Shown here one piece after another: positions 20,442 to 33,389 of a stretch of 33,389 bases of DNA. Below the pieces are notes generated by a model, which searched no databases, was not told where the DNA came from, and was given only the letters and a program-made list of their open reading frames with translations. Every line of letters begins with the position of its first letter. The stretch's first letter is position 1. Location of the stretch: NCBI GenBank assembly GCA_903883965.1, contig CAISCU010000040.1, positions 1 to 33,389 on the forward strand, in the 5' to 3' direction. The DNA is from an uncultured Bacteroidota bacterium (GTDB taxonomy: Bacteria; Bacteroidota; Bacteroidia; UKL13-3). The translations under genes and the position numbers were made by a program.

Positions 20442-20556
20442 TGTTGCTGCGCTGTTCTGGGGCTCAATATCGTTAAAATGCGCCGAAATGGAAACAGGTA
20501 AAGTGCATGAGCGCCCATTGCTTCAGGTTCAGGCAAAACACAACACCACCCTACAT

Positions 20557-21123: not shown

Positions 21124-21180
21124 CCAAGAGGCATATAGGTGGTTGGGCTGCATTGCGCAAATTTAAGAGTTAGCGGTCAT
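21124..21180. repeat. Repeat copy R2 joined to cassette core B
   Basis: Positions 21124-21164 repeat the 3' coding end of the 163-aa gene (minus-strand frame KFAQCSPTTYMPLGK) with three changes from R3. Immediately after it comes GAGTTAGCGGTCATGC, a right-border-like core (GTTAGCG). The spacing to R1 is 560 nt and to R3 611 nt, all in direct orientation. The repeat therefore flanks both small gene units in this junction. Confidence 0.75.
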
Positions 21181-21237
21181 GCTATCAAATAGCACACAAC
21201 AGATAATCATCTTGGTAAAAAGGTAGATTTTTCTTAA

Positions 21238-21486
21238 CTTAGATGGGAAAAAAAAGGAAAGAAAAAGCTTTATAAAGGAGTTGCTGGAAATCTGGTTGCT
21301 TTTGCTTGTAAAACCTCATTTGAAAACGGTTATGGCGGAATTGTCTCATTTGTTGCCAAGACCCAACTCATTGAACATTACTCACAGACCTTGGGGGCAA
21401 AGGTTTTTGGGGGCAATAGAATGTTTATTGATACAAAAGAAGCCCATATCCTTACATTAAGATACTTTAACTATTTTCAATTATGA
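21238..21486 (+). pseudogene. Truncated remnant of an unrecognised protein (possibly acetyltransferase-like)
   Basis: The frame is open from 21238 to a TGA at 21484-21486 and reads YKGVAGNLVAFACKTSFENG, then FVAKTQLIEHYSQTLGAKVF and RMFIDTKEAHILTLRYF. I recall similar C-terminal pieces in Bacteroidota proteins annotated as acetyltransferase-like, but I cannot confirm the fold. There is no ATG before the conserved part and the expected N-terminal ~60 residues are absent. A frame change in the A-rich stretch at 21249-21265 is possible. Its stop overlaps the next ORF's start (ATGA), so the pair was once a coupled two-gene unit. Confidence 0.55.
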
Positions 21487-21641
21487 TAGACTTCAAAAAA
21501 ATGGACGACAAAGACTTTGTTTTCATCAACAAACCGCTAAGCGATAAAGATGACAAAGCATTTAGCGACTTTTTAAAAAGCCGTAAGACAAAATCACTGG
21601 GTGCAAGAACACAGAAAAAGATTAAAAAATTACACGCCTAA
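21483..21641 (+). CDS. 52-aa charged protein coupled to the truncated upstream gene
   Basis: Too short for usual gene calls. It reads MIDFKKMDDKDFVFINKPLS and ends in a lysine-rich tail KTKSLGARTQKKIKKLHA. The start overlaps the upstream frame's stop by 4 nt. The middle (LSDKDDKAFSDFLKSRK) is charged and probably helical. Size and coupling would fit an antitoxin or accessory subunit of a toxin-like partner, but that is a guess. The stop codon lies inside CGCCTAACAA, which resembles a left-border core. The stretch from here to 21727 contains no other gene. Confidence 0.5.
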   Translation: MIDFKKMDDKDFVFINKPLSDKDDKAFSDFLKSRKTKSLGARTQKKIKKLHA

Positions 21642-21727
21642 CAATAAGCACGAACAGCTGTATGTAAATTCAAAAGGTATCAGCAACCAAGGTTCAAACT
21701 TTCACCAACAGGGGTTTGATATTTTTT

Positions 21728-24046: not shown

Positions 24047-24190
24047 CCCTGTAATGGTTTGGGGCTTTGCGAAGATGGTATTTTTTAATACAAATATTGC
24101 TGCAGAGAACTAAACTTTGATTCACCACAGATGTGTCATACGAAGTACAACAACTAACACTATGCCAAACCGATACTTTTCTGTTCTTTA
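24047..24190 (+). repeat. Cassette-border element E (degenerate)
   Basis: This has the same layout and orientation as the elements at 26025 and 31664: GGCTTTGCGAAG at the left, ACAAATATTGCTGCAGAGAAC, then ACTTTGATTCACCACAGATG, then ATGCCAAACC and CTGTT at the right. The arms pair mainly through GGTTTGG (24056-24062) with CCAAACC (24165-24171). Pairing elsewhere is weak and the outer cores are eroded, so this looks like the oldest copy. It runs up to the stop of hipT. Confidence 0.7.
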
Positions 24191-25120
24191 TCATTTTAGA
24201 AGTTCTATCCTTTCCAAAACCATTTTTTTAAAATCGTTTTTATGTTCCGTAGGCAGAAAAGAATGATCAATCCACCAATTTAATTGTGTTAACCTATCAA
24301 TAATTAAATTGTAGCAATTCTGAATTTGTTTTTCTGTCAACTGTAAATTAAAACCTAAGGCATCAAAGTCCTTCCTTGAAATTTTATTTTTCTTACCATT
24401 TACATTCAAACTCATTTGCTCGGTTTCGTCTTTTATAACAAGATTCGTGCTAACTAAGTCATATGCAGGACTAAGGCAAAATGTCCCATCTTTTTTCTCA
24501 ATCATAGAAATATTTTTTAGGTGCATATCTGCATTACCCGAAATGAAACTAAATAATACCAATTGAAAATAATGCAAAATATCCAATCCAGACTGTGTTG
24601 AATATTGATTGATAGTTTTGCCAATTTTTTCGTAGCTACCTCTGTATTTATGTTCTGTAAGTGTTTCTGTAAGTTGACACAAGTCTTCGCAAGCTATTTT
24701 GTTTGTTTTTTCTCGGTCAAATCGCTTTGTCATGTAAGCAAGTTTTCCGCTCTTTAATCTCACCAAACTATGTATTGCTACTTCAATTCCTAATTCATTT
24801 GCAAGGTGCATACACAAGTCCTCATTTTCAGGTAAACATAAATAAGTTTCACTTTGAGGTTTGATGATGTAGTTGCTTTTATCATCAACAATTGTAAATC
24901 GGATACTTTTTTTTGTTTCTTCAAGCCATAAACTTAGTTTTGGTTGAACACCAGTTATAGCAGTGTTTGCACCAATAATTTTCTTTGCGTAATCACTTAA
25001 TTTATTTTCGTCAATATCAAATTCTGGCATTTGTTTTAAGCCAAAAATACTGGCTATACACTTCTCGTGATAGTCAGTTTCTTGTAGCGTTAACGGTTTA
25101 TAGCAAATTAAACAATTCAT
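24191..25120 (-). CDS. hipT: HipT-like serine/threonine kinase toxin (HipA C-terminal domain)
   Basis: This is the kinase core of a split HipA toxin. In characterised HipA/HipT systems such kinases phosphorylate aminoacyl-tRNA synthetases and stop growth. From the ATG at 25120 it is 309 residues. A short zinc-ribbon-like start has Cys3, Cys6, His18 and Cys21. The ATP loop is ITGVQPKLS at 55-63, the ATP-binding Lys87 is in YIIKP, the catalytic Asp198 is in GNADMHLKN and the metal Asp221 is in SPAYDLVS. All are intact. I chose this start because it lies 5 nt after the hipS stop. An upstream ATG at 25159 would overlap hipS. Confidence 0.9.
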   Translation of the reverse strand: MNCLICYKPLTLQETDYHEKCIASIFGLKQMPEFDIDENKLSDYAKKIIGANTAITGVQPKLSLWLEETKKSIRFTIVDDKSNYIIKPQSETYLCLPENEDLCMHLANELGIEVAIHSLVRLKSGKLAYMTKRFDREKTNKIACEDLCQLTETLTEHKYRGSYEKIGKTINQYSTQSGLDILHYFQLVLFSFISGNADMHLKNISMIEKKDGTFCLSPAYDLVSTNLVIKDETEQMSLNVNGKKNKISRKDFDALGFNLQLTEKQIQNCYNLIIDRLTQLNWWIDHSFLPTEHKNDFKKMVLERIELLK

Positions 25121-25125
25121 TGTTT

Positions 25126-25440
25126 TTAGTTTTGAATAATAGAGATATCGCCTATACAATCTTTACAAAGTGTTAGCAAAAGGCTCATGCGGTTTCTTGG
25201 GTTAAGTTTCCAATTTTCAACTGCTATTTGTAATAGCCAACCTTCGGGAATTAGTCCATCAAAGAAGGGCAACATTTCATTGCTTGTAAATACTTCTTGG
25301 CGCAACGGCAAAGTTCTACTTACGTCTCCATAAATAGGATTAGACAAATAGTCTTTATGGTATTGAAAAGAATAGCCATTGTCATCTTCCCATATCAAAC
25401 CCACCAATTTGTCTTTTTTATAAACCAATCCTTGTTTCAT
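25126..25440 (-). CDS. hipS: HipS-like protein (HipA N-terminal subdomain)
   Basis: A 104-residue stand-alone version of the N-terminal subdomain of HipA. Typical segments are YGDVSRTLPL, EMLPFFDGLIPEGWLL and LLLTLCKDCIGDISII. In the E. coli O127 HipBST system the equivalent small protein HipS acts as the antitoxin of the kinase HipT, while HipB boosts it and binds DNA. The gene sits 11 nt after hipB and 5 nt before hipT, in the order B-S-T. Which protein neutralises the toxin here is inferred from that system. Confidence 0.85.
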   Translation of the reverse strand: MKQGLVYKKDKLVGLIWEDDNGYSFQYHKDYLSNPIYGDVSRTLPLRQEVFTSNEMLPFFDGLIPEGWLLQIAVENWKLNPRNRMSLLLTLCKDCIGDISIIQN

Positions 25441-25451
25441 TACTAATTCAT

Positions 25452-25883
25452 CTATTGATTTTCGATTGAGAAGATATCTGAATGATTAATTATTTCAGTC
25501 AGTTTATCATCGGGTTTTTGTTGAAATTGTATGGCGTTATTGTTTGGGACGAATTTCCAAGCATCAATTTTGTTTTCTTTTTTGTTTATCATTTCCTGTA
25601 CAATAATGCCATATTTAACTACTTTATTGAACAATGTAATTTTTACACCTTTGTTCAGATAATTCCAAAATATGTCATAAGGGTCAATTTGTTGTTTGTT
25701 TGGGGTTAGTTGAAAGCCAAATAAATGAAGTACCTGTTCAACTTTGTCTAATTGCAGACTTTCCTTACCCTGTTCTAACTCACGAATAAAGCGAATGCCT
25801 ACACCCGCTTTTGTTGCAAGCTCTTCTTGGGTGATGCCAAGTTTTTTCCTTTGAAATCGGATAAATGACGACAGATTGTTCAT
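25452..25883 (-). CDS. hipB: HipB-like HTH protein with C-terminal extension
   Basis: A 143-residue protein. Residues ~4-60 form an XRE-type helix-turn-helix (FIRFQRKKLGITQEELATKA, then RELEQGKESLQLDKVEQVLHLFGF), as in HipB. The other ~80 residues (DPYDIFWNYLNKGVKITLFN and beyond) are unusual for HipB and I do not recognise them. It is first in the hipB-hipS-hipT operon and probably represses it through the repeated sites directly upstream. The C-terminal extension could be a binding surface for the kinase, but this is unproven. Confidence 0.85.
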   Translation of the reverse strand: MNNLSSFIRFQRKKLGITQEELATKAGVGIRFIRELEQGKESLQLDKVEQVLHLFGFQLTPNKQQIDPYDIFWNYLNKGVKITLFNKVVKYGIIVQEMINKKENKIDAWKFVPNNNAIQFQQKPDDKLTEIINHSDIFSIENQ

Positions 25884-25890
25884 TATATTA

Positions 25891-25986
25891 TACCTTTACG
25901 GGTACAAATATAGTAAAAAACTAAATAAACAAACCGTTCGGGTATAAAATATGAAGAAAGTGCGAATCTCGTCCTTTTCGGGTATA
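25891..25986 (-). promoter_or_regulatory. Three evenly spaced probable HipB operators
   Basis: CGGGTA occurs at 25899-25904, 25939-25944 and 25979-25984, exactly 40 nt apart, each preceded by CC and a T-rich stretch (CCTTTA, CCGTT, CCTTTT). The copy nearest the gene is a dyad, TACC, 6 nt, GGTA. The spacing of about four helical turns puts the sites on one face of the DNA, as expected for an autoregulating antitoxin. The hipB start is 8 nt away. Confidence 0.6.
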
Positions 25987-26024
25987 ATGATTGGATTTTT
26001 TTTGGTTTGATATTGAAGGATTGC

Positions 26025-26166
26025 TAGTAAGGGGTTGAGGACTTTGCGAAGGTGGCGATTTTCACCAAAAATGTTGATGCGGAGAACCAAACTTTGATGA
26101 ACCACAAATGTGTCTGAGGAGCACTGAACCGCCACTTTTGCCAAACGCCTGTTGTGGGTTCGTTGT
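26025..26166 (+). repeat. Cassette-border element F
   Basis: A nearly identical sister of element H: TTTGCGAAGGTGGCGA (26043-26058) on the left pairs with CCGCCACTTTTGCCAAA (26129-26145) on the right. The centre has the two unit copies CACCAAAAATGT (26063-26074) and AACCACAAATGT (26100-26111), each followed by TGCGGAG or TGAGGAG. The right core is CTGTTGTGGG. The left core is eroded. It lies between the 3' end of the AAA ATPase and the hip operators. Confidence 0.85.
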
Positions 26167-26175
26167 TTACATACT

Positions 26176-27624
26176 CTAATTTTGATTCTTCATTTTCAAT
26201 GTTATGTCTCCAATATTATAACTATATATTGAAGCTGGTAAAAATGAAAATAATAAACCTTCTATTTGCTTTATTCCTAGTTGGTCTATTGATGTTACTA
26301 AAGCATTTTTAAAATTGTTGCTTTTACAAAAACGTATTAAACTTTTTAATTCGTTTGGTTTTTCAAAATATCGATTACTCCATTTTATCTCAACACCCCA
26401 TTGAGGCTTATATTTTTTATCATCAACTAATACTAAGTCTACTTCACCTTCATTTCTTCCTTCTTTCCATCGGGCATAGGTTAGATCTAATTTTTCTCTA
26501 TGCATCCATTGCGATAACACTGCTGTTTCCACCATATTTCCCATTTCACTGTCTGTTTCACTAATTGGTGAAAATAAGGCTGTCCGCAATGATGGATTTG
26601 TCAAGTACACCTTGAAGCTAGTTATTCGTTTTAGTCGTTTTGCTGTTACGTCAACTTTGTTTAATACTTTGATTAAGAATGCAGCTTCTAAATATTCTAG
26701 GTATTTTTTCAAAGTGTCTTTTTGTATACCACTTTCTTTACTCATTGTTTCATAAGAAAATTCATTCCCAGTATTGTAGGCTATGTATGTAAAAAATCGG
26801 TTTAACTCTTGTACGTCTTTTATCCCGTATAAGCTTGGTAAATCTCTAAGTAATACTTTATCTACAATATCGTTTTTTACGTAACGTCCCATATCACTTT
26901 GTATCTTATCACTTAAAACAACTTCAGGGTAGCCACCGAAGTTTAAGTAATGTACAAACTCTTTATTTAAAGCCTTTATATCGTGTGAAAGACAATACGG
27001 TATTTGATTTTCTCCATAGCTAATTTCTCCATTGTACATTAAGTGGTTCATTTCCTTGAGATGAATGTATTCCTGAAATGTAAGTGGAGGTAACATAAAA
27101 TCTGTAAATCTACCCGCTCCACTTTCCGAGCTATGCCATTTTAATGCTGCTGCGGCTGAACCTGAAACAATAAATTTTGTTTCAGGAAATGAATCAACTA
27201 ACACCTTAAGGTGGCGTTCCCAATCTTTCAGGTATTGTATTTCGTCAAAAAAAACGTAGCAACCTTTTAGATTGTCTTGATTGAGTGATTGCTTACATAA
27301 ATTTAAAATGTCTTCTAAACTTAACTGCACATAAATAGGGTTGTCTATGCCTATGAAAAATATTTTTTGCGGATTTACATTTTCAGTCAATAATTGTTGA
27401 ATGCTGTGAAATAACATTACAGTTTTTCCAACACGTCTTGGCCCCATAAGAACCAATGCTCTTTTTACATTTTTTTCAATTACAAATGGATAAAACAAGT
27501 TAAAATATAGTCGCTTGGCCATTGCGCTATACACTTCAGGTATTTGTTTGTTAACCCACCAAGGATTTTCATACCGTAAGCGTGCTTTTATTTTTTCTGT
27601 TGGAATAAGACTTATACTGCCCAT
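26176..27624 (-). CDS. AAA ATPase with DUF4143 nuclease-like C-terminus
   Basis: A 482-residue protein of the AAA_14/DUF4143 type. Walker A is GPRRVGKT at 61-68, Walker B is YVFFDEIQ at 123-130, then sensor SGS at 154-156 and GAGR at 169-172. A winged helix follows at about 286-320. The DUF4143 part has EVD at 394-396 and EIK at 412-414, a PD-(D/E)xK-like arrangement, so a nuclease activity is possible. The function of the family is poorly known. Here it stands alone between border elements F and G, beside restriction and toxin-antitoxin genes, which makes a defence or conflict role plausible but unproven. Confidence 0.85.
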   Translation of the reverse strand: MGSISLIPTEKIKARLRYENPWWVNKQIPEVYSAMAKRLYFNLFYPFVIEKNVKRALVLMGPRRVGKTVMLFHSIQQLLTENVNPQKIFFIGIDNPIYVQLSLEDILNLCKQSLNQDNLKGCYVFFDEIQYLKDWERHLKVLVDSFPETKFIVSGSAAAALKWHSSESGAGRFTDFMLPPLTFQEYIHLKEMNHLMYNGEISYGENQIPYCLSHDIKALNKEFVHYLNFGGYPEVVLSDKIQSDMGRYVKNDIVDKVLLRDLPSLYGIKDVQELNRFFTYIAYNTGNEFSYETMSKESGIQKDTLKKYLEYLEAAFLIKVLNKVDVTAKRLKRITSFKVYLTNPSLRTALFSPISETDSEMGNMVETAVLSQWMHREKLDLTYARWKEGRNEGEVDLVLVDDKKYKPQWGVEIKWSNRYFEKPNELKSLIRFCKSNNFKNALVTSIDQLGIKQIEGLLFSFLPASIYSYNIGDITLKMKNQN

Positions 27625-27778
27625 AAAATCATTTGTTTTTACAAATTTAGATAAAATAGATAGATTTTAACCTACTTATTTTTTACTTTTATGTAATTAT
27701 AAGAAGTTTATTACCTAATAACTCATCCATTTTATCGATTTCAAGTAAGTCAGTACTCAGACGGTTCGTATTAAAATG

Positions 27779-27934
27779 ACGCACAACGTTTTGCAGCTAC
27801 CCGAAGGGCGGGACTTTTAACACAAATGTTGATTTGAAAAACTAATGTTTGATTAACCACAAAACTGTCTTTGGAATACGAATTGAAAATCAGCGAAGCT
27901 AAATCCCGCCTTTTGGGTAGGTGCTGTTATGCGT
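27779..27934 (+). repeat. Cassette-border element G, long imperfect palindrome
   Basis: This is the best folded copy. ACGCACAAC at 27779-27787 pairs with GTTATGCGT at 27926-27934. AGCTACCCGAAGGGCGGGA pairs with TCCCGCCTTTTGGGTAGGT (27904-27922), with an unpaired GTTTTGC at 27788-27794 on the left arm. The centre has ACACAAATGTTGAT and TTTGATTAACCACAAA, shared with elements E, F and H. The arm sequence, however, is quite different from theirs. It separates mcrC from the ATPase gene. The remaining 27625-27778 contains nothing I recognise. Confidence 0.85.
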
Positions 27935-27981
27935 TCGGGCTTCTTTCTCTATCGTTAATTTTCTGTCTGAATTCGATGTTG

Positions 27982-29322
27982 TCATTGAAGTAATTTGTTT
28001 AATTGTGTTTCAATAGTCTCATATAACATTGAGTCTAATTCGTTAAAATTTGTCAATGATGAAAAAGGAATCTCCATCGCTGTTATTGTTATTTCGTCTG
28101 CTCCACCAAACCCTGAAATAATTTTAAAGTTGTCTGATGCATTTAGGTCATCTGCAATGTTTGGGTAAACTAATATTATATCTGTGCAACCTCTCTTAAA
28201 AGCATAACTAACCATTTGATAAAGGTCTGATTGTGCTACACCTTTTTTTGGGTCTGTTTTGAAATTGTCTTGGCGTAATTTGTATTTAGTGTCAATGATA
28301 ACTTTTCGTTTTGAACCATGTCTTGCCGTAAGAAATATGTCATGTTGCATATTGAATACTCTAGGTATATTTGACAAGTATTCGTCTGATTTTTGATATT
28401 CAATTTTCCAATCTTTTGAAAATTTGTTTTCTAAGAACCCTGCAAGAAAATCTTCAAAAATATATTCCATTGGGAAAAGTAAACACCATTGAGAAAGGTC
28501 ATATGTATTACTTGAATAGAGTTGTTGACTAAGGATAAGTTTGCAACTGTTAAGTAGATTAGTGTAATCTGAAAAGAAGGTATTTAGGGAAATGTTTTCA
28601 ATGTCGTGAATAGTGCAATGTAAATCCTCAACTTCGTCTAGGATGAATACAACATCTTGAAGCATTCGCAAATTTTCTGAAAACTTTGTTTGCTTCATCA
28701 ACAACCGTGAACAATATTTAATTACTCTGTTTACTTTATTGTCAAACAGAAATGGTTCATAGTCACATTCAATATTTTGAAAATTTCCGTGTGATATACT
28801 ACTGCTTAAATACCGTTTGAAATTTATTGAACCTCTTGGAGTAATTAACGCTTCCTCCACTTCTTGATACATAGTCAAAGGTTGCTTTGAAACAGTTTCT
28901 AAAAACTGATTTGCTATTAAGTTTATAATCAACTCTGGGAATTCGTTAATGTCAATTGTATCAAGAGAAGCTTGATTAAAAGGGAAGTTCCATTTACGAC
29001 AATAGCTAAACCAATAAAAGATGTGGCGAAGCATCAACATCTTTTCATTCTCGGATGGGTTTGGTAAATGTTGTCGAAATACTTTTGGGTAAATCTCAAT
29101 TACTTCATCTCCGTTTTGAATGAAACCAACAAAATTGTTTGCTCTTATTTGGTTGTCGTCAAACTGTAGGAATGGTTGATAATGATTGTCTGTTTCAGCT
29201 TCTGTTAATTCAGAATCTGTTTCAACAAACATGCGTTGCTTCCAAATGCCTTTCAACATTTGGTGTAAAGCATTTTTGTCTTTTATGCTCTGCCATTTTC
29301 CGTATTCAAAAAGTAGAGCCAT
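27982..29322 (-). CDS. mcrC: McrC-like nuclease subunit of type IV restriction
   Basis: McrC is the endonuclease that, driven by McrB, cuts modified (methylated or otherwise marked) DNA. The 446-residue protein has the N-terminal FVGFIQNGDEVIEIYPKVF and a C-terminal PD-(D/E)xK nuclease with Asp328 (MQHDIFL), Asp344 and Lys346 (IIDTKYK), followed by QSDLYQMVSYA. All are intact. Its start is 1 nt after the mcrB stop, so they form one operon, as is usual. Confidence 0.94.
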   Translation of the reverse strand: MALLFEYGKWQSIKDKNALHQMLKGIWKQRMFVETDSELTEAETDNHYQPFLQFDDNQIRANNFVGFIQNGDEVIEIYPKVFRQHLPNPSENEKMLMLRHIFYWFSYCRKWNFPFNQASLDTIDINEFPELIINLIANQFLETVSKQPLTMYQEVEEALITPRGSINFKRYLSSSISHGNFQNIECDYEPFLFDNKVNRVIKYCSRLLMKQTKFSENLRMLQDVVFILDEVEDLHCTIHDIENISLNTFFSDYTNLLNSCKLILSQQLYSSNTYDLSQWCLLFPMEYIFEDFLAGFLENKFSKDWKIEYQKSDEYLSNIPRVFNMQHDIFLTARHGSKRKVIIDTKYKLRQDNFKTDPKKGVAQSDLYQMVSYAFKRGCTDIILVYPNIADDLNASDNFKIISGFGGADEITITAMEIPFSSLTNFNELDSMLYETIETQLNKLLQ

Positions 29323-29323
29323 T

Positions 29324-31606
29324 TTATCTTTGTGAAATATCCCAAATGAAATTTGTTGTATCGTAAGTTACATTCCAATTGGTGTCTGCAAATATTTTTG
29401 AAACGATGTCTGTTTTGCCTGAAAAATATTCCATCAATAGGGGGACAACTTTGTTTTTCAAAACAATTTCAATTGTTTGACCTTTCATGAAGTAAGCATG
29501 CCCAATCAAATAGTCAGCAGATTTTTTTTCCTTGAAAACTGCTTCATTGACTTTTCTTAGTAGTGTAGATTCTTCTTCATTCAACTCTTCGTAATCAGGA
29601 TAATAACCAATGAACTCAAATCTTCTCCTTAAAGCAATATCAATTAAAGCAATAGACTTGTCTGCTGTATTCATTGTGGCGATGATGTAAAGATTTGGCG
29701 GAACGCCAAATTCTTTTTCTCCATTCGGTAAAGTAATTTTCAATTCGTTCTCACCACCCAATCTTTTATCATCTTCAAGTAGCGTAATCAATTCACCAAA
29801 CACTTTTGAAATGTTTGCCCGATTAATTTCATCAATAATCAGAACAAAATTTTTCAATTGTTCGTCTGCTGATTTTTGTGGTTCAAGTGTTTCAGCAAAC
29901 TCTTTTAAATGTTCTACAAGTGGATTGTAGTAAACTCCCAAACCCTCAACACCATAATCTAAGCTGCCTTCGTAAATCGCTTTGAGATTCTTTACAAGCA
30001 AGTCGTGTCCTGTTCCTCCGCTTTGTTTAGTAAACTTTATTCTTCCCTCATCAACGTCAATTTTAGTTATTTTAAACTTGTAACCTTTGCTCTTCATGGG
30101 TATTTCAACCTCCTTTACTTCTTCTTCAATCAACTTTGAAAAGAAAGTATTGAAAACAAAATTGAAGTCAATTGTGATTTCTTTTTTGTTAGTTGTTGCA
30201 ATCCAATTTTGTTTTGCTCTTTCTGATAACAGCTTGAAAATACCTTCTCGTTTGTCAAAACGTAAAGTTCCAGATGTAACATCGGGAGAAATCCCAACTA
30301 CAAAATCTTCATAGGAATAATTTTGGTGGAAAGTAACGAACTCAATTTGCCCAGCCTTTCTTAATTCGTCAAAAATATTTTTGTTGGCTGTATGATTGTT
30401 CAGATTAAACCTATCTCTTGAAGCAATCTCAACTGCCTTGTCAATGCTGTTGTAAGTCTTTCCTGTTCCAGGTGGTCCGTAAAGGATTATATTTTTTGGT
30501 TGCATTTCTTCTGTGTTTTCTGATTCTCTAGAATCTTTGATTAAATCGTAAATAGTTTTGTATTCCTTTTTTGTTGCAGAAAAATTTGTTCCTTGATTTC
30601 CAACTTTTAAGTTTTCTAAGCCCTTAGTCCCTTTTATTTTAATCCAAAGCAATGGATTGTCAATTATGTTGTGAGTAATTTTTATACCTGCCTTAATTGG
30701 ATTTTTATCCTCTGTTTTCCAAAGATGTGAATCTTTGGAGTTCGAAATATTATGCGGTTCACTTGTTATTTCGGCAAGGGAATAACAACCAGAATTTTTT
30801 CCTGAAATCCATAAAATTACTTTGTCACCAATTTTGATTTTATCTTTGTGAGCAGATACTGTCCAATCTTCAAGCAAGTTATTTCTTATCGCTGTTTCAA
30901 AATCAAATGCGTTTGGATTGCCTTGAAAAATCCAGTAGTTAGAATTTCTGTTGTTCCATAAGTCAATAACTCTTTGTTTGACTTTCGAATCTTGAACTTT
31001 CCGAATTCCTGCTTGAAGTTGATAAGTGAATCTTTCATCTTCATCTAATTCGTACCATTCAACATTGGAAATATTAATCCAATCTTCAAAGGGAATATTT
31101 AGTGACTCAAATGGCTCCTCAAATTGTTTGGTTTTAGTTACCAATTGAGGGGATTCTAAAATTTTAGCGATTGACATTGCATTAAAACCTTCGGTTACCA
31201 GTATTAAATCACCAACTGCATATTTCTTGTCTTCAACTCCAACTACAATTTCATTCTCTTTTATTAATTCATAGAAACTTGGATTACCCTTGTCCCAGTT
31301 ACAACCTAATTTCCAAATGTTACCAGTAATTGGTTGTTCATTCAAAATTGAATCTGATTTACTTTTGATTTGAAAACCTAGAGCAGTAAAATATTTGTTG
31401 GTTGGTTCACCACCACTCCGTTCCCAAATATGTTCACCATTCATTAACTCGTGAGCATATCGCATTACTTCTTTAGGTGGGTAGGCTTTGCCATTAACAA
31501 TTACATCAAACCTTGTCGAAGGTTCTAGAGGGATAGACTCGCTGTCTATTTTCTTGACTGCGTCAAGTACATGCTGTTTAGTTATTTTGTCTGGTTCAAA
31601 AGCCAT
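29324..31606 (-). CDS. mcrB: McrB-like GTPase with two N-terminal reader modules
   Basis: A 760-residue AAA+ motor that recognises modified DNA and powers McrC. Residues ~1-85 resemble the DNA-binding head found at the start of ScoMcrA-like proteins. Residues ~93-215 are a region I cannot name. Residues ~222-355 look like an EVE/PUA-like domain (NYWIFQGNPNAFDF, KIKIGDKVILWISGKNSGCY). The motor has Walker A GPPGTGKT at 377-384, Walker B LIIDEINRA at 589-597, the McrB GTPase signature MNTADKS at 645-651 and arginines in ALRRRFEF. An EVE domain suggests that bulky modified cytosines (5mC, hmC, glucosylated) could be the target. That is inference. Confidence 0.93.
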   Translation of the reverse strand: MAFEPDKITKQHVLDAVKKIDSESIPLEPSTRFDVIVNGKAYPPKEVMRYAHELMNGEHIWERSGGEPTNKYFTALGFQIKSKSDSILNEQPITGNIWKLGCNWDKGNPSFYELIKENEIVVGVEDKKYAVGDLILVTEGFNAMSIAKILESPQLVTKTKQFEEPFESLNIPFEDWINISNVEWYELDEDERFTYQLQAGIRKVQDSKVKQRVIDLWNNRNSNYWIFQGNPNAFDFETAIRNNLLEDWTVSAHKDKIKIGDKVILWISGKNSGCYSLAEITSEPHNISNSKDSHLWKTEDKNPIKAGIKITHNIIDNPLLWIKIKGTKGLENLKVGNQGTNFSATKKEYKTIYDLIKDSRESENTEEMQPKNIILYGPPGTGKTYNSIDKAVEIASRDRFNLNNHTANKNIFDELRKAGQIEFVTFHQNYSYEDFVVGISPDVTSGTLRFDKREGIFKLLSERAKQNWIATTNKKEITIDFNFVFNTFFSKLIEEEVKEVEIPMKSKGYKFKITKIDVDEGRIKFTKQSGGTGHDLLVKNLKAIYEGSLDYGVEGLGVYYNPLVEHLKEFAETLEPQKSADEQLKNFVLIIDEINRANISKVFGELITLLEDDKRLGGENELKITLPNGEKEFGVPPNLYIIATMNTADKSIALIDIALRRRFEFIGYYPDYEELNEEESTLLRKVNEAVFKEKKSADYLIGHAYFMKGQTIEIVLKNKVVPLLMEYFSGKTDIVSKIFADTNWNVTYDTTNFIWDISQR

Positions 31607-31663
31607 TATTATTTTCTTTTTCTGTCGTATTTTTTATTATGTATGGTCGGCTTTTAGCCTGAC

Positions 31664-31797
31664 GCATAACGTTTTCGGGCTTGGCGAAGGTGGCGATTTT
31701 TACCACAAATGTTGATGCGGAGAACCAAACTTTGATTAACCACAAATGTGTCTGCGGAGCACTGAACCGCCACTTTTGCCAAATGACTGTTACCTGC
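31664..31797 (+). repeat. Cassette-border element H
   Basis: The outer core GCATAAC at 31664-31670 faces GTTACCTGC at 31789-31797. The inner arm TTGGCGAAGGTGGCGA at 31681-31696 pairs with CCGCCACTTTTGCCAA (31767-31782) with two G-T wobbles. The centre holds two direct copies of a 21-nt unit at 31702-31722 and 31739-31759 that differ in three adjacent bases: ACCACAAATGT, then TGA or GTC, then TGCGGAG. They are separated by TTTGATTA. A small extra hairpin, GTCGGCT (31646-31652) with AGCCTGAC, lies between it and the mcrB start. Confidence 0.85.
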
Positions 31798-31809: not shown

Positions 31810-33260
31810 TTATTTGATATTGGAAATAGTAATTGTATTCTTCTGGTTGTCAATAATGATTTTCCCGTATTTACTTAGAGCACTCTGTCCAAAAAGAAGA
31901 GGTGCTGTTTTATTATTTACAACGGATGCTGATACATTTTTTAAAACCAAACCACCAAATTCCACTTTCCTTAATATTATTTTCGTTCCGATTTCTATAT
32001 CCCCATTAGCATCCATGTAACGTTGATTCGAGCCAATGTCTGTTGAATTTAAATATCCATTTTTGAGCATAAAAAGTGCTTCGGTTTGTGAAATGGAAAT
32101 GTCACTTGCACCAGTGTCAAAAATGAAGTTTAAACGCAAATCGTTTACCTTACAAGACACCTCATATATTCCAGACCCTTTAGGTGTCATGGGAATTGTA
32201 ACTGTCTCAGCTTTGTTTTCAGTCACACTAGGTTTCTGATTGGCTTCCTTTTTTAATGACTCATCAAAGTTGGTTCTCCATTCTTGAACAAGGTTCTTAA
32301 ACTCAGGCATATTTCTGATATTATCCAAATCATCATCAATAGATAAATGGACAAAATCTCTATACCCTTTTGTAAATGCAATTTTCAAATTTGATAAAGC
32401 CTCTGTTGAATTATTCATTAATGAATACAAACATGCAGCATCATAGTAGTTTCCTTCATTGGGGTATTGCTCTATAATTTTATCCAACCATTTTATTGCA
32501 TCATCAATACGTCCTAAATGGAAAAGTGCATACTGTCTACAATTGCCTTGCTCATCAATTGTAGTGTCAATTGATAATATATTTAAATAATCTTCTTTTG
32601 CTTTGTCGGTTTTTTTTAATTGGGATTCATATAAACGCCCTCTATTCAAATATGTGTATACGTATTTGTCGTTTATCGATATAGACTCATTATAGTCATT
32701 CAGTGCTTCTCCAAACTCTTTCAAAAACTCTCTTGTCCAGCCTCTTCTATAATAAAACCAGGACTCTCTTGGTTCAATTTCAACAGCTTTGGTGAAGTCT
32801 TGAATCGCACCGGTGTAGTCACCCATCAATCTTTTAGCATCTGCTTTATAAGCATAATTATATGCGTCAGTTGAATCAATTGAAATTATTTCATTATAAT
32901 CAGAAATTGCCAATTCATACATTCCAGAATTTGAATAGCATTTTGCTCTATAAGCTAATAGATCGGGCTTGAAACTTATGTCAGACAATTCTAATACTTT
33001 ATTGTAATCTTTAATAGCTGCAGCGAAATTGTATTTTCCTTCATACAACTGTGCCCTAATAAAATACCAAAGTTCTTTTTCTGGATGGGCAGAAATTTGT
33101 GAATTAACTTTAGAGAGCGACAACGAATAATTTTTTTCAGAATACGAAATAAAAATACTGCGCATTATTTTATCTGAATCGTCTAAAAGAAAAGCATAAA
33201 AAATATCCTCAATGGCATCATTATATTTTTGCAGCTCATAATAATAACTATAATACTCCC
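31810..33260 (-). pseudogene. TPR protein with C-terminal retropepsin-like domain, 5' end cut by an IS
   Basis: The C-terminal ~125 residues are an aspartyl protease-like domain with FDTGASDIS (the Asp of DTG is residue 350 counted from the ATG at 33165), and LLFGQSALSKYGKIIIDN closes the fold. About 270 residues of TPR repeats precede it (RAKCYSNSGMYELAISDYNE, ADAKRLMGDYTGAIQDFTKA). The frame stays open and TPR-like upstream of the internal ATG, reading REYYSYYYELQKYNDAIEDI, up to about 33260. It then runs into sequence belonging to a mobile element and a stop at 33282-33280. The original start is therefore lost. It is on the far side of border element H from mcrB. Confidence 0.8.
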
Positions 33261-33389
33261 TGAATCCTGGACCAGAGGTTTAGTTAAAAAATCACTTAAT
33301 TTGACTAAACGATATGACCAAACAAACCCGACGCAAATTCACGCCTGAATTCAAGGCAAAAGTTGCATTAGAAGCGGCTAAAGACCAAC
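33261..33389 (+). mobile_element. Left end of an IS3-type insertion sequence (continues beyond the window)
   Basis: The sequence changes character near 33261-33268 (TGAATCCTGGACC or TGGACC could be the IS end), and a transposase OrfA begins at 33314. TTTAGT and ACTAAA (33279-33284 and 33303-33308) may be part of the terminal structure. The other end and any target duplication lie outside the window, so the exact boundary is uncertain by about 10 nt. Confidence 0.75.
33314..33389 (+). CDS. IS3-family transposase OrfA, N-terminal fragment
   Basis: Twenty-five residues are visible before the window ends: MTKQTRRKFTPEFKAKVALE, then AAKDQ. This is the standard start of the helix-turn-helix OrfA protein of IS3-family elements, which joins OrfB by frameshifting to make the DDE transposase. 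The truncation is due to the window edge. Confidence 0.85.
   Translation, partial: MTKQTRRKFTPEFKAKVALEAAKDQ

Follow-up and report, generated by a model that had tools for sequence, protein, structure and literature searches.

The repeat element studied here is very probably an attC-like recombination site of a Bacteroidota integron-like cassette system, which would be served by a tyrosine recombinase of a provisional sister family to IntI. It occurs in several copies in the window, the whole stretch of 33,389 nucleotides that was analysed. The assignment draws on sequence evidence, namely covariation, orientation, shared cassette junctions, an attI-like motif, the linkage of element and recombinase and their joint occurrence in genomes, and the position of this recombinase in the tree. 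Catalysis would be carried out by the array recombinase on a single strand, which we infer to be chosen by means of an asymmetric spacer and conserved G·T wobbles.

Architecture of the element and its array

Site G (27780-27932, minus strand), detected by nhmmer and by a covariance model (106 bits, E 4.8e-22), sits at the end of an McrBC cassette. The recombining R'-like outer box (27781-27787, minus strand) reads GCACAAC as written, i.e., GTTGTGC in the canonical sense, and the R''-like outer box (27926-27932, minus strand) reads GTTATGC as written. This outer pair, absent from the earlier sequence-only reading, flanks a 15-bp inner stem composed of a left arm, TACCCGAAGGGCGGG (27798-27812), and a right arm, CCCGCCTTTTGGGTA (27905-27919). 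Judging from the cassette junctions of related loci, the crossover of site G would fall between A27786 and C27787 (G^TT). The gene-sense canonical orientation of the site is the minus strand, with the plus strand being the better-folding “bottom” strand; all four copies in the window share one orientation, and the intervening genes lie on the other strand. Site H (31663-31797, minus strand; nhmmer, 122 bits by covariance model) is accompanied by two copies of lower score, one at 26026-26158 (minus strand, 89 bits; TAAG at 26028-26031) and the most degraded one at 24050-24183 (minus strand, 52.6 bits; TAAT at 24052-24055). The crossover base has changed to G at 26031 and to T at 24055, in two of the four copies. 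Across its own genome, the covariance model found ten elements on contigs C40, C7, C8 and C46, with a single orientation on each contig.

Applying the junction rule from crossover to crossover, we delimited putative cassettes, all on the minus strand. The cassette ending in site G (27787-31669) would comprise an McrC-like gene (27982-29322, minus strand; PF10117, E 8e-73) and an EVE/AAA McrB-like gene (29324-31606, minus strand; PF07728/PF01878). The next one (26031-27786) would carry an AAA_14/DUF4143 ATPase gene (26176-27624; PDC-S01, a candidate defense family in PADLOC) and its attC-like site, followed by a third (24055-26030) with genes for a HipB-like HTH protein (25452-25883), the HipA N-terminal part (25126-25440) and the HipA C-terminal part (24191-25159), in addition to the degraded site. 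A TPR and aspartyl-protease-like gene (31810-33165, minus strand) adjoining site H represents either a further cassette or the array edge, with the contig ending at 33389. Of such recombinases, the metagenome-assembled genome (MAG) has XerC/XerD-like proteins only and no canonical IntI. As it also has no array recombinase, and two of the four sites carry an altered crossover base, the array in the window is probably an orphan that has partly decayed.

Two further features were noticed in the window. At 33280-33389, the minus strand appears by eye to carry the beginning of orfA of an IS3-type transposase, and an insertion sequence may have cut the array at this contig end. Around 21156-21660, direct repeats at 20556, 21116 and 21727 all end in AAATTT-n2-GAG; two of them run on into GCGCTT and the middle one into TTAGCGGTCATGC, which resembles a cassette start and is followed by broken small ORFs. 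The segment 21156-21660 resembles a cassette that was inserted at a secondary G^TTA site and has since decayed.

Covariation, fold and strand preference

The sequence-only reading had proposed that the arms of G and H differ in sequence and retain their pairing. The arms were located at 27795-27813/27904-27922 in G and 31681-31696/31767-31782 in H, and both sides have indeed changed together, with G·T wobbles at the same two positions in the two sites and, beyond them, conserved across 78 divergent copies. An alignment of these copies, covering the 15 pairs of the inner stem and four outer-box pairs with shuffles and slid registers as controls, revealed strong covariation. Cells are paired at 92.3%, compared to 72.8% in the shuffles, and 244 cells are changed on both sides, compared to 82.5. 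The covariation score of 0.465 drops to 0.143 upon shuffling and collapses to at most 0.123 in all slid registers. Double-sided changes occur in 12 of the 15 inner pairs, and RNAalifold finds the inner stem unaided, along with three outer pairs. The inner stem is thus inverted and variable in sequence yet paired, as in attC sites, and the outer boxes are attC-like as well, with AAC and GTT conserved at 96-99%. On the bottom strand, 98% of the copies have a G after AAC, the base that most attC sites carry at this place (PMC2727003).

The two wobbles differ in constraint. Pair 28-169 is almost strictly conserved as G·U (73 of 78 copies), whereas at pair 24-172, 42 copies have G·U and 29 have G-C; on the opposite strand, both G·T positions turn into A·C mismatches. 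The left-arm asymmetry noted earlier is conserved, at a smaller size than claimed: the spacer between outer box and inner stem is 10 nt on the left and 6 nt on the right, which leaves four extra bases, mainly from a G-T-T-T-T run, instead of seven. The unpaired central spacer therefore differs between the strands, a further attC feature. With DNA parameters, site G folds at -28.6 kcal/mol as written and at -20.5 kcal/mol on the opposite strand, a difference of 8.1 kcal/mol. Among 95 representatives, 69 reach the lower energy on the strand as written (p 6e-8). The mean difference is modest, at 1.8 kcal/mol, and on average the better-folding strand is the one antisense to the cassette genes.

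On their R''-L'' arm, attC sites bear two or three extrahelical bases (PMC2727003). In the 78-copy alignment, by contrast, no conserved unpaired column is seen along the right arm of this stem. The strand may plausibly be chosen through the bulge, with the asymmetric spacer and the wobbles being conserved and this canonical strand marker being absent. Since the recombinase also lacks the additional domain of IntI (see below), the strand mechanism may differ from the known single-stranded one.

Cassette organization and junctions

Neighboring elements are co-oriented in all 109 pairs across the loci, and 164 of the 175 enclosed ORFs are placed with the element at the 3' end of the gene, which is the integron direction (11 are opposite). 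The loci thus present one-orientation cassette arrays in which each cassette ends in an attC-like site. For instance, one contig (L217) bears 12 elements in one orientation together with a recombinase within 17 kb.

Junctions were analysed at the far ends of four cassettes common to unrelated contigs, leaving aside some pairwise displays in which the left edge of an element is shifted by one base. The tightest bound comes from the pair L118/L140, where homology ends after TAA, i.e., TAA^C, or G^TTA on the gene strand. In the other pairs homology ends after TAAC (L049/L132), TAACG (L136/L162) and TAACGTT (L145/L155); because most elements have TAACG in common, the letters beyond TAA may match via the core rather than the cassette. 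Separately, a 4.1-kb segment starting from an element left border is 99.9% identical between L052 (1021-5149), from a MAG with the label Algoriphagus, and L068 (1766-5894), from a Paracnuella aquatica isolate, pointing to either recent transfer or misbinning. Most of the genomes are MAGs, and some shared cassettes could be products of misbinning.

Recombinase linkage and the attI-like site

In loci picked by the element alone, 0.755 Mb in total, there are 16 tyrosine recombinases, all from a single family, compared to about 0.14 expected from a rough genome-wide frequency. Fourteen of them lie at the upstream end of an array and two inside an array; 13 are on the cassette strand and three on the opposite one. 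At one array end (L162, 5606-6763), the recombinase is divergent from the cassettes, which is the classical integron layout. Downstream of 26 of 30 recombinases, an invariant TATA is followed by four bases and AG^TT (TATA-n4-AG^TTA), giving an attI-like site, as judged by sequence, with a G^TT core next to the recombinase gene. Several contigs end exactly at AGTTA (L184, L194, L196, L200 and L206) or AGTT (L192 and L201) of this core, breaks which would reflect different first cassettes in different cells.

In the reverse direction, the covariance model R1 was run on loci chosen by protein alone, around 12 sister recombinases and 12 IntI genes. It matched near eight of the former and none of the latter (p 0.0013); two of the 12 sister-recombinase genomes (G277 and G251) had already been used in the protein alignment. 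A separate IntI locus (L167) gave a marginal element match (E 0.008). Strong recombinase hits tend to fall in the same genomes as the elements (66/18/78/132 among 294 genomes; odds ratio 6.2, p 1e-10), also outside the own family of the window genome (odds ratio 4.9, p 1.6e-6), both values ignoring kinship. Among the 144 element-bearing genomes, 51 have no recombinase at E<=1e-70, and 64 genomes have a recombinase and no element in a single-query BLAST search.

Identity of the array recombinase

The score of the array recombinase is close to the cut-off that NCBIfam sets for XerA-type recombinases, and under that for IntI; with TIGR02249, the eight array recombinases scanned reached 178-223 bits, compared to a cut-off of 265. 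Structure prediction by AlphaFold2 yielded a model with a mean pLDDT of 84 and a pTM of 0.55, and a structural similarity search using Foldseek returned VchIntIA bound to VCR DNA (PDB 2A3V) as its best match. The cores align, except that VchIntIA has ~42 more residues at profile positions 257-277. Both sequence and PDB alignments indicate that the additional domain of IntI (I2, or the intI patch), by which intI is defined in PMC2426708, is absent from the array recombinases. In a tree of 55 rows, including 36 array recombinases, IntI and five Xer proteins, the array recombinases form a clade (support 97/93), as does IntI (100/99), and the two group together apart from Xer (99/97). By this sequence comparison, the array recombinases are provisionally a sister family to IntI, given that the outgroups are few and long-branched.

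Most members possess an extra N-terminal domain of ~60 residues with a conserved W-S...W motif. Pfam gave weak HARP matches in three of 32 members and DUF5710 in 12. The top row of the Foldseek search with this domain was the HARP domain of SMARCAL1 at an E of 0.37, and HARP was not among the 50 matches listed by VIA-align 2, where other folds took the best Z of 4.6. Kinship with HARP is therefore unproven.

Distribution and alternative explanations

In a BLAST search with copy H, 144 of the 294 Bacteroidia relatives proved to have the element, with some matches in other families being 97-99% identical over ~117 bp. An exact 36-mer occurs in at least 115 stretches of GTDB contigs, with titles that nearly all refer to Bacteroidota. 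One element contig each (L059 and L119) is found in MAGs titled Candidatus Staskawiczbacteria and Rhizobium, by misbinning or wider spread. The sister recombinase is present in 157 of the 294 relatives, compared to only two with a true IntI over the cut-off. In a phylum-wide sample, IntI is found in 84 of 296 genomes, all except one (G201) labelled as outside class Bacteroidia. Published surveys describe integrons as occurring in Bacteroidota, but rarely (PMC9024848, PMC8618304, PMC9668308); in Bacteroidetes, one survey met In0 only, and one complete integron was then reported in Salinibacter ruber (PMC9024848). By comparison, roughly half of the 294 Bacteroidia genomes have the sites or the recombinase, and near-identical sites recur in different families. 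One element-bearing Bacteroidia genome (G042) has an IntI-like ORF of 273 aa, apparently truncated, and nhmmer found no element within this 3.7-kb locus (L168).

These counts bear on the idea that canonical IntI, present transiently or acting in trans, mobilizes the elements as ordinary attC sites, which are left behind as CALINs. The overall architecture is alike, true IntI is common in the other classes of the phylum, and G042 holds elements along with the truncated ORF; however, the scarcity of IntI beside the abundant elements and sister recombinases, the lack of element matches near IntI genes, and the missing conserved extrahelical bases make this explanation improbable. Host XerC/XerD could also move the sites, with the linked recombinase being a passenger. 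There is a published precedent in the integration of CTXphi by XerCD (PMC4792948), and the only such recombinases in the present MAG are XerC/XerD-like. Nevertheless, the linkage and position of the recombinase at array ends and the attI-like site far exceed chance, and this recombinase belongs to a separate clade beside IntI, so we regard a purely Xer-driven system as quite improbable.

Explanations without site-specific recombination fare worse. A stable, covarying and intergenic hairpin is also what a structured RNA or a transcription terminator would offer, and the sequence-only reading had left the choice between attC and structured RNA open when it argued for a selected folded single strand. 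Its attC branch stands, on the covariation, uniform orientation, gene direction, TAA^C junctions, G after AAC, and the attI-like site with its recombinase. The RNA branch is not supported: no Rfam family matched the element at either of the two thresholds tried, on which ground a structured RNA was rejected, and the favored strand is antisense. Moreover, the cassette junctions fall within the outer box, and the element moves together with the adjacent gene, leaving an RNA or terminator highly improbable. Multiple near-identical dispersed copies would suit a transposase-mobilized repeat of the MITE or REP type, but uniform orientation, junctions that take in a gene, and linkage to a tyrosine recombinase speak against it so strongly that we dismissed it, and it is hardly credible. 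A phage or plasmid origin was also set aside, since the phage and plasmid collections gave no match; one viral contig came up besides.

Proposed mechanism and implications

In the integron-like system that we favor, an array would begin with the IntI-sister tyrosine recombinase and the attI-like site; the cassettes behind them would each contain one to a few genes closed by an attC-like site. On the strand antisense to the cassette genes, a hairpin would extrude with a TAAC/GTTA outer box, an asymmetric spacer, a 15-bp stem with conserved G·T pairs and a long variable top. The recombinase would then exchange this strand, at the point between the A and the C of TAAC, with attI, another attC or sometimes a secondary site, so that cassettes are captured, lost and shuffled, always in one orientation. 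Machinery of this kind for shuffling genes has probably gone unnoticed in about half of these Bacteroidia genomes. We found no earlier description of the system in the open-access literature searched, so its novelty is provisional.

On balance, we lean towards a second, class-wide integron lineage, in which an IntI-sister clade recombines folded single-stranded sites without I2 or extrahelical bases, using conserved wobbles, the asymmetric spacer and perhaps the N-terminal domain. Escudero et al. describe I2 and the extrahelical bases as having co-evolved, and call the question of which came first a chicken-and-egg paradox of integron origin (PMC4792948); the second lineage may retain the stage that preceded this co-evolution, or may have solved it independently. 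If true, cassette capture would be a major route of gene exchange in Bacteroidia, including defense and toxin-antitoxin genes like those in the window, and the origin of single-strand cassette recombination would become testable by comparing enzymes with and without I2. Survey tools that need the IntI domain, or attC models from other phyla, are expected to miss the system. A system that lacks both I2 and extrahelical bases, yet has cassettes, an attI-like site and folded sites, is thus worth a bench test.

Comparison with known systems

The Bacteroidota system shares with the Vibrio cholerae superintegron a recombinase gene, an adjacent attI-like site and one-orientation cassettes with a palindromic end site; the G^TT crossover, the G after bottom-strand AAC and the long top also resemble those of VCR. 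Compared to IntI integrons, its recombinase is without the additional domain but extended by a further domain at the N-terminus, whereas its sites lack conserved extrahelical bases, keep the G·T wobbles, and have a sequence common to many families. As in Treponema integrons, where intI is transcribed toward attI (PMC3607928), the recombinase is mostly on the cassette strand, and its 3' end adjoins the attI-like site (the 13 of 16 linked cases on this strand); the Treponema enzyme, however, is a canonical IntI. The array in the window resembles a CALIN in having no recombinase in its genome assembly, but related Bacteroidia genomes hold complete platforms with a non-IntI recombinase. With the single-stranded integration of CTXphi by XerCD (PMC4792948), the system has in common a tyrosine recombinase without I2 and a folded site without extrahelical bases; it differs in possessing a dedicated recombinase, an attI-like site and cassette arrays.
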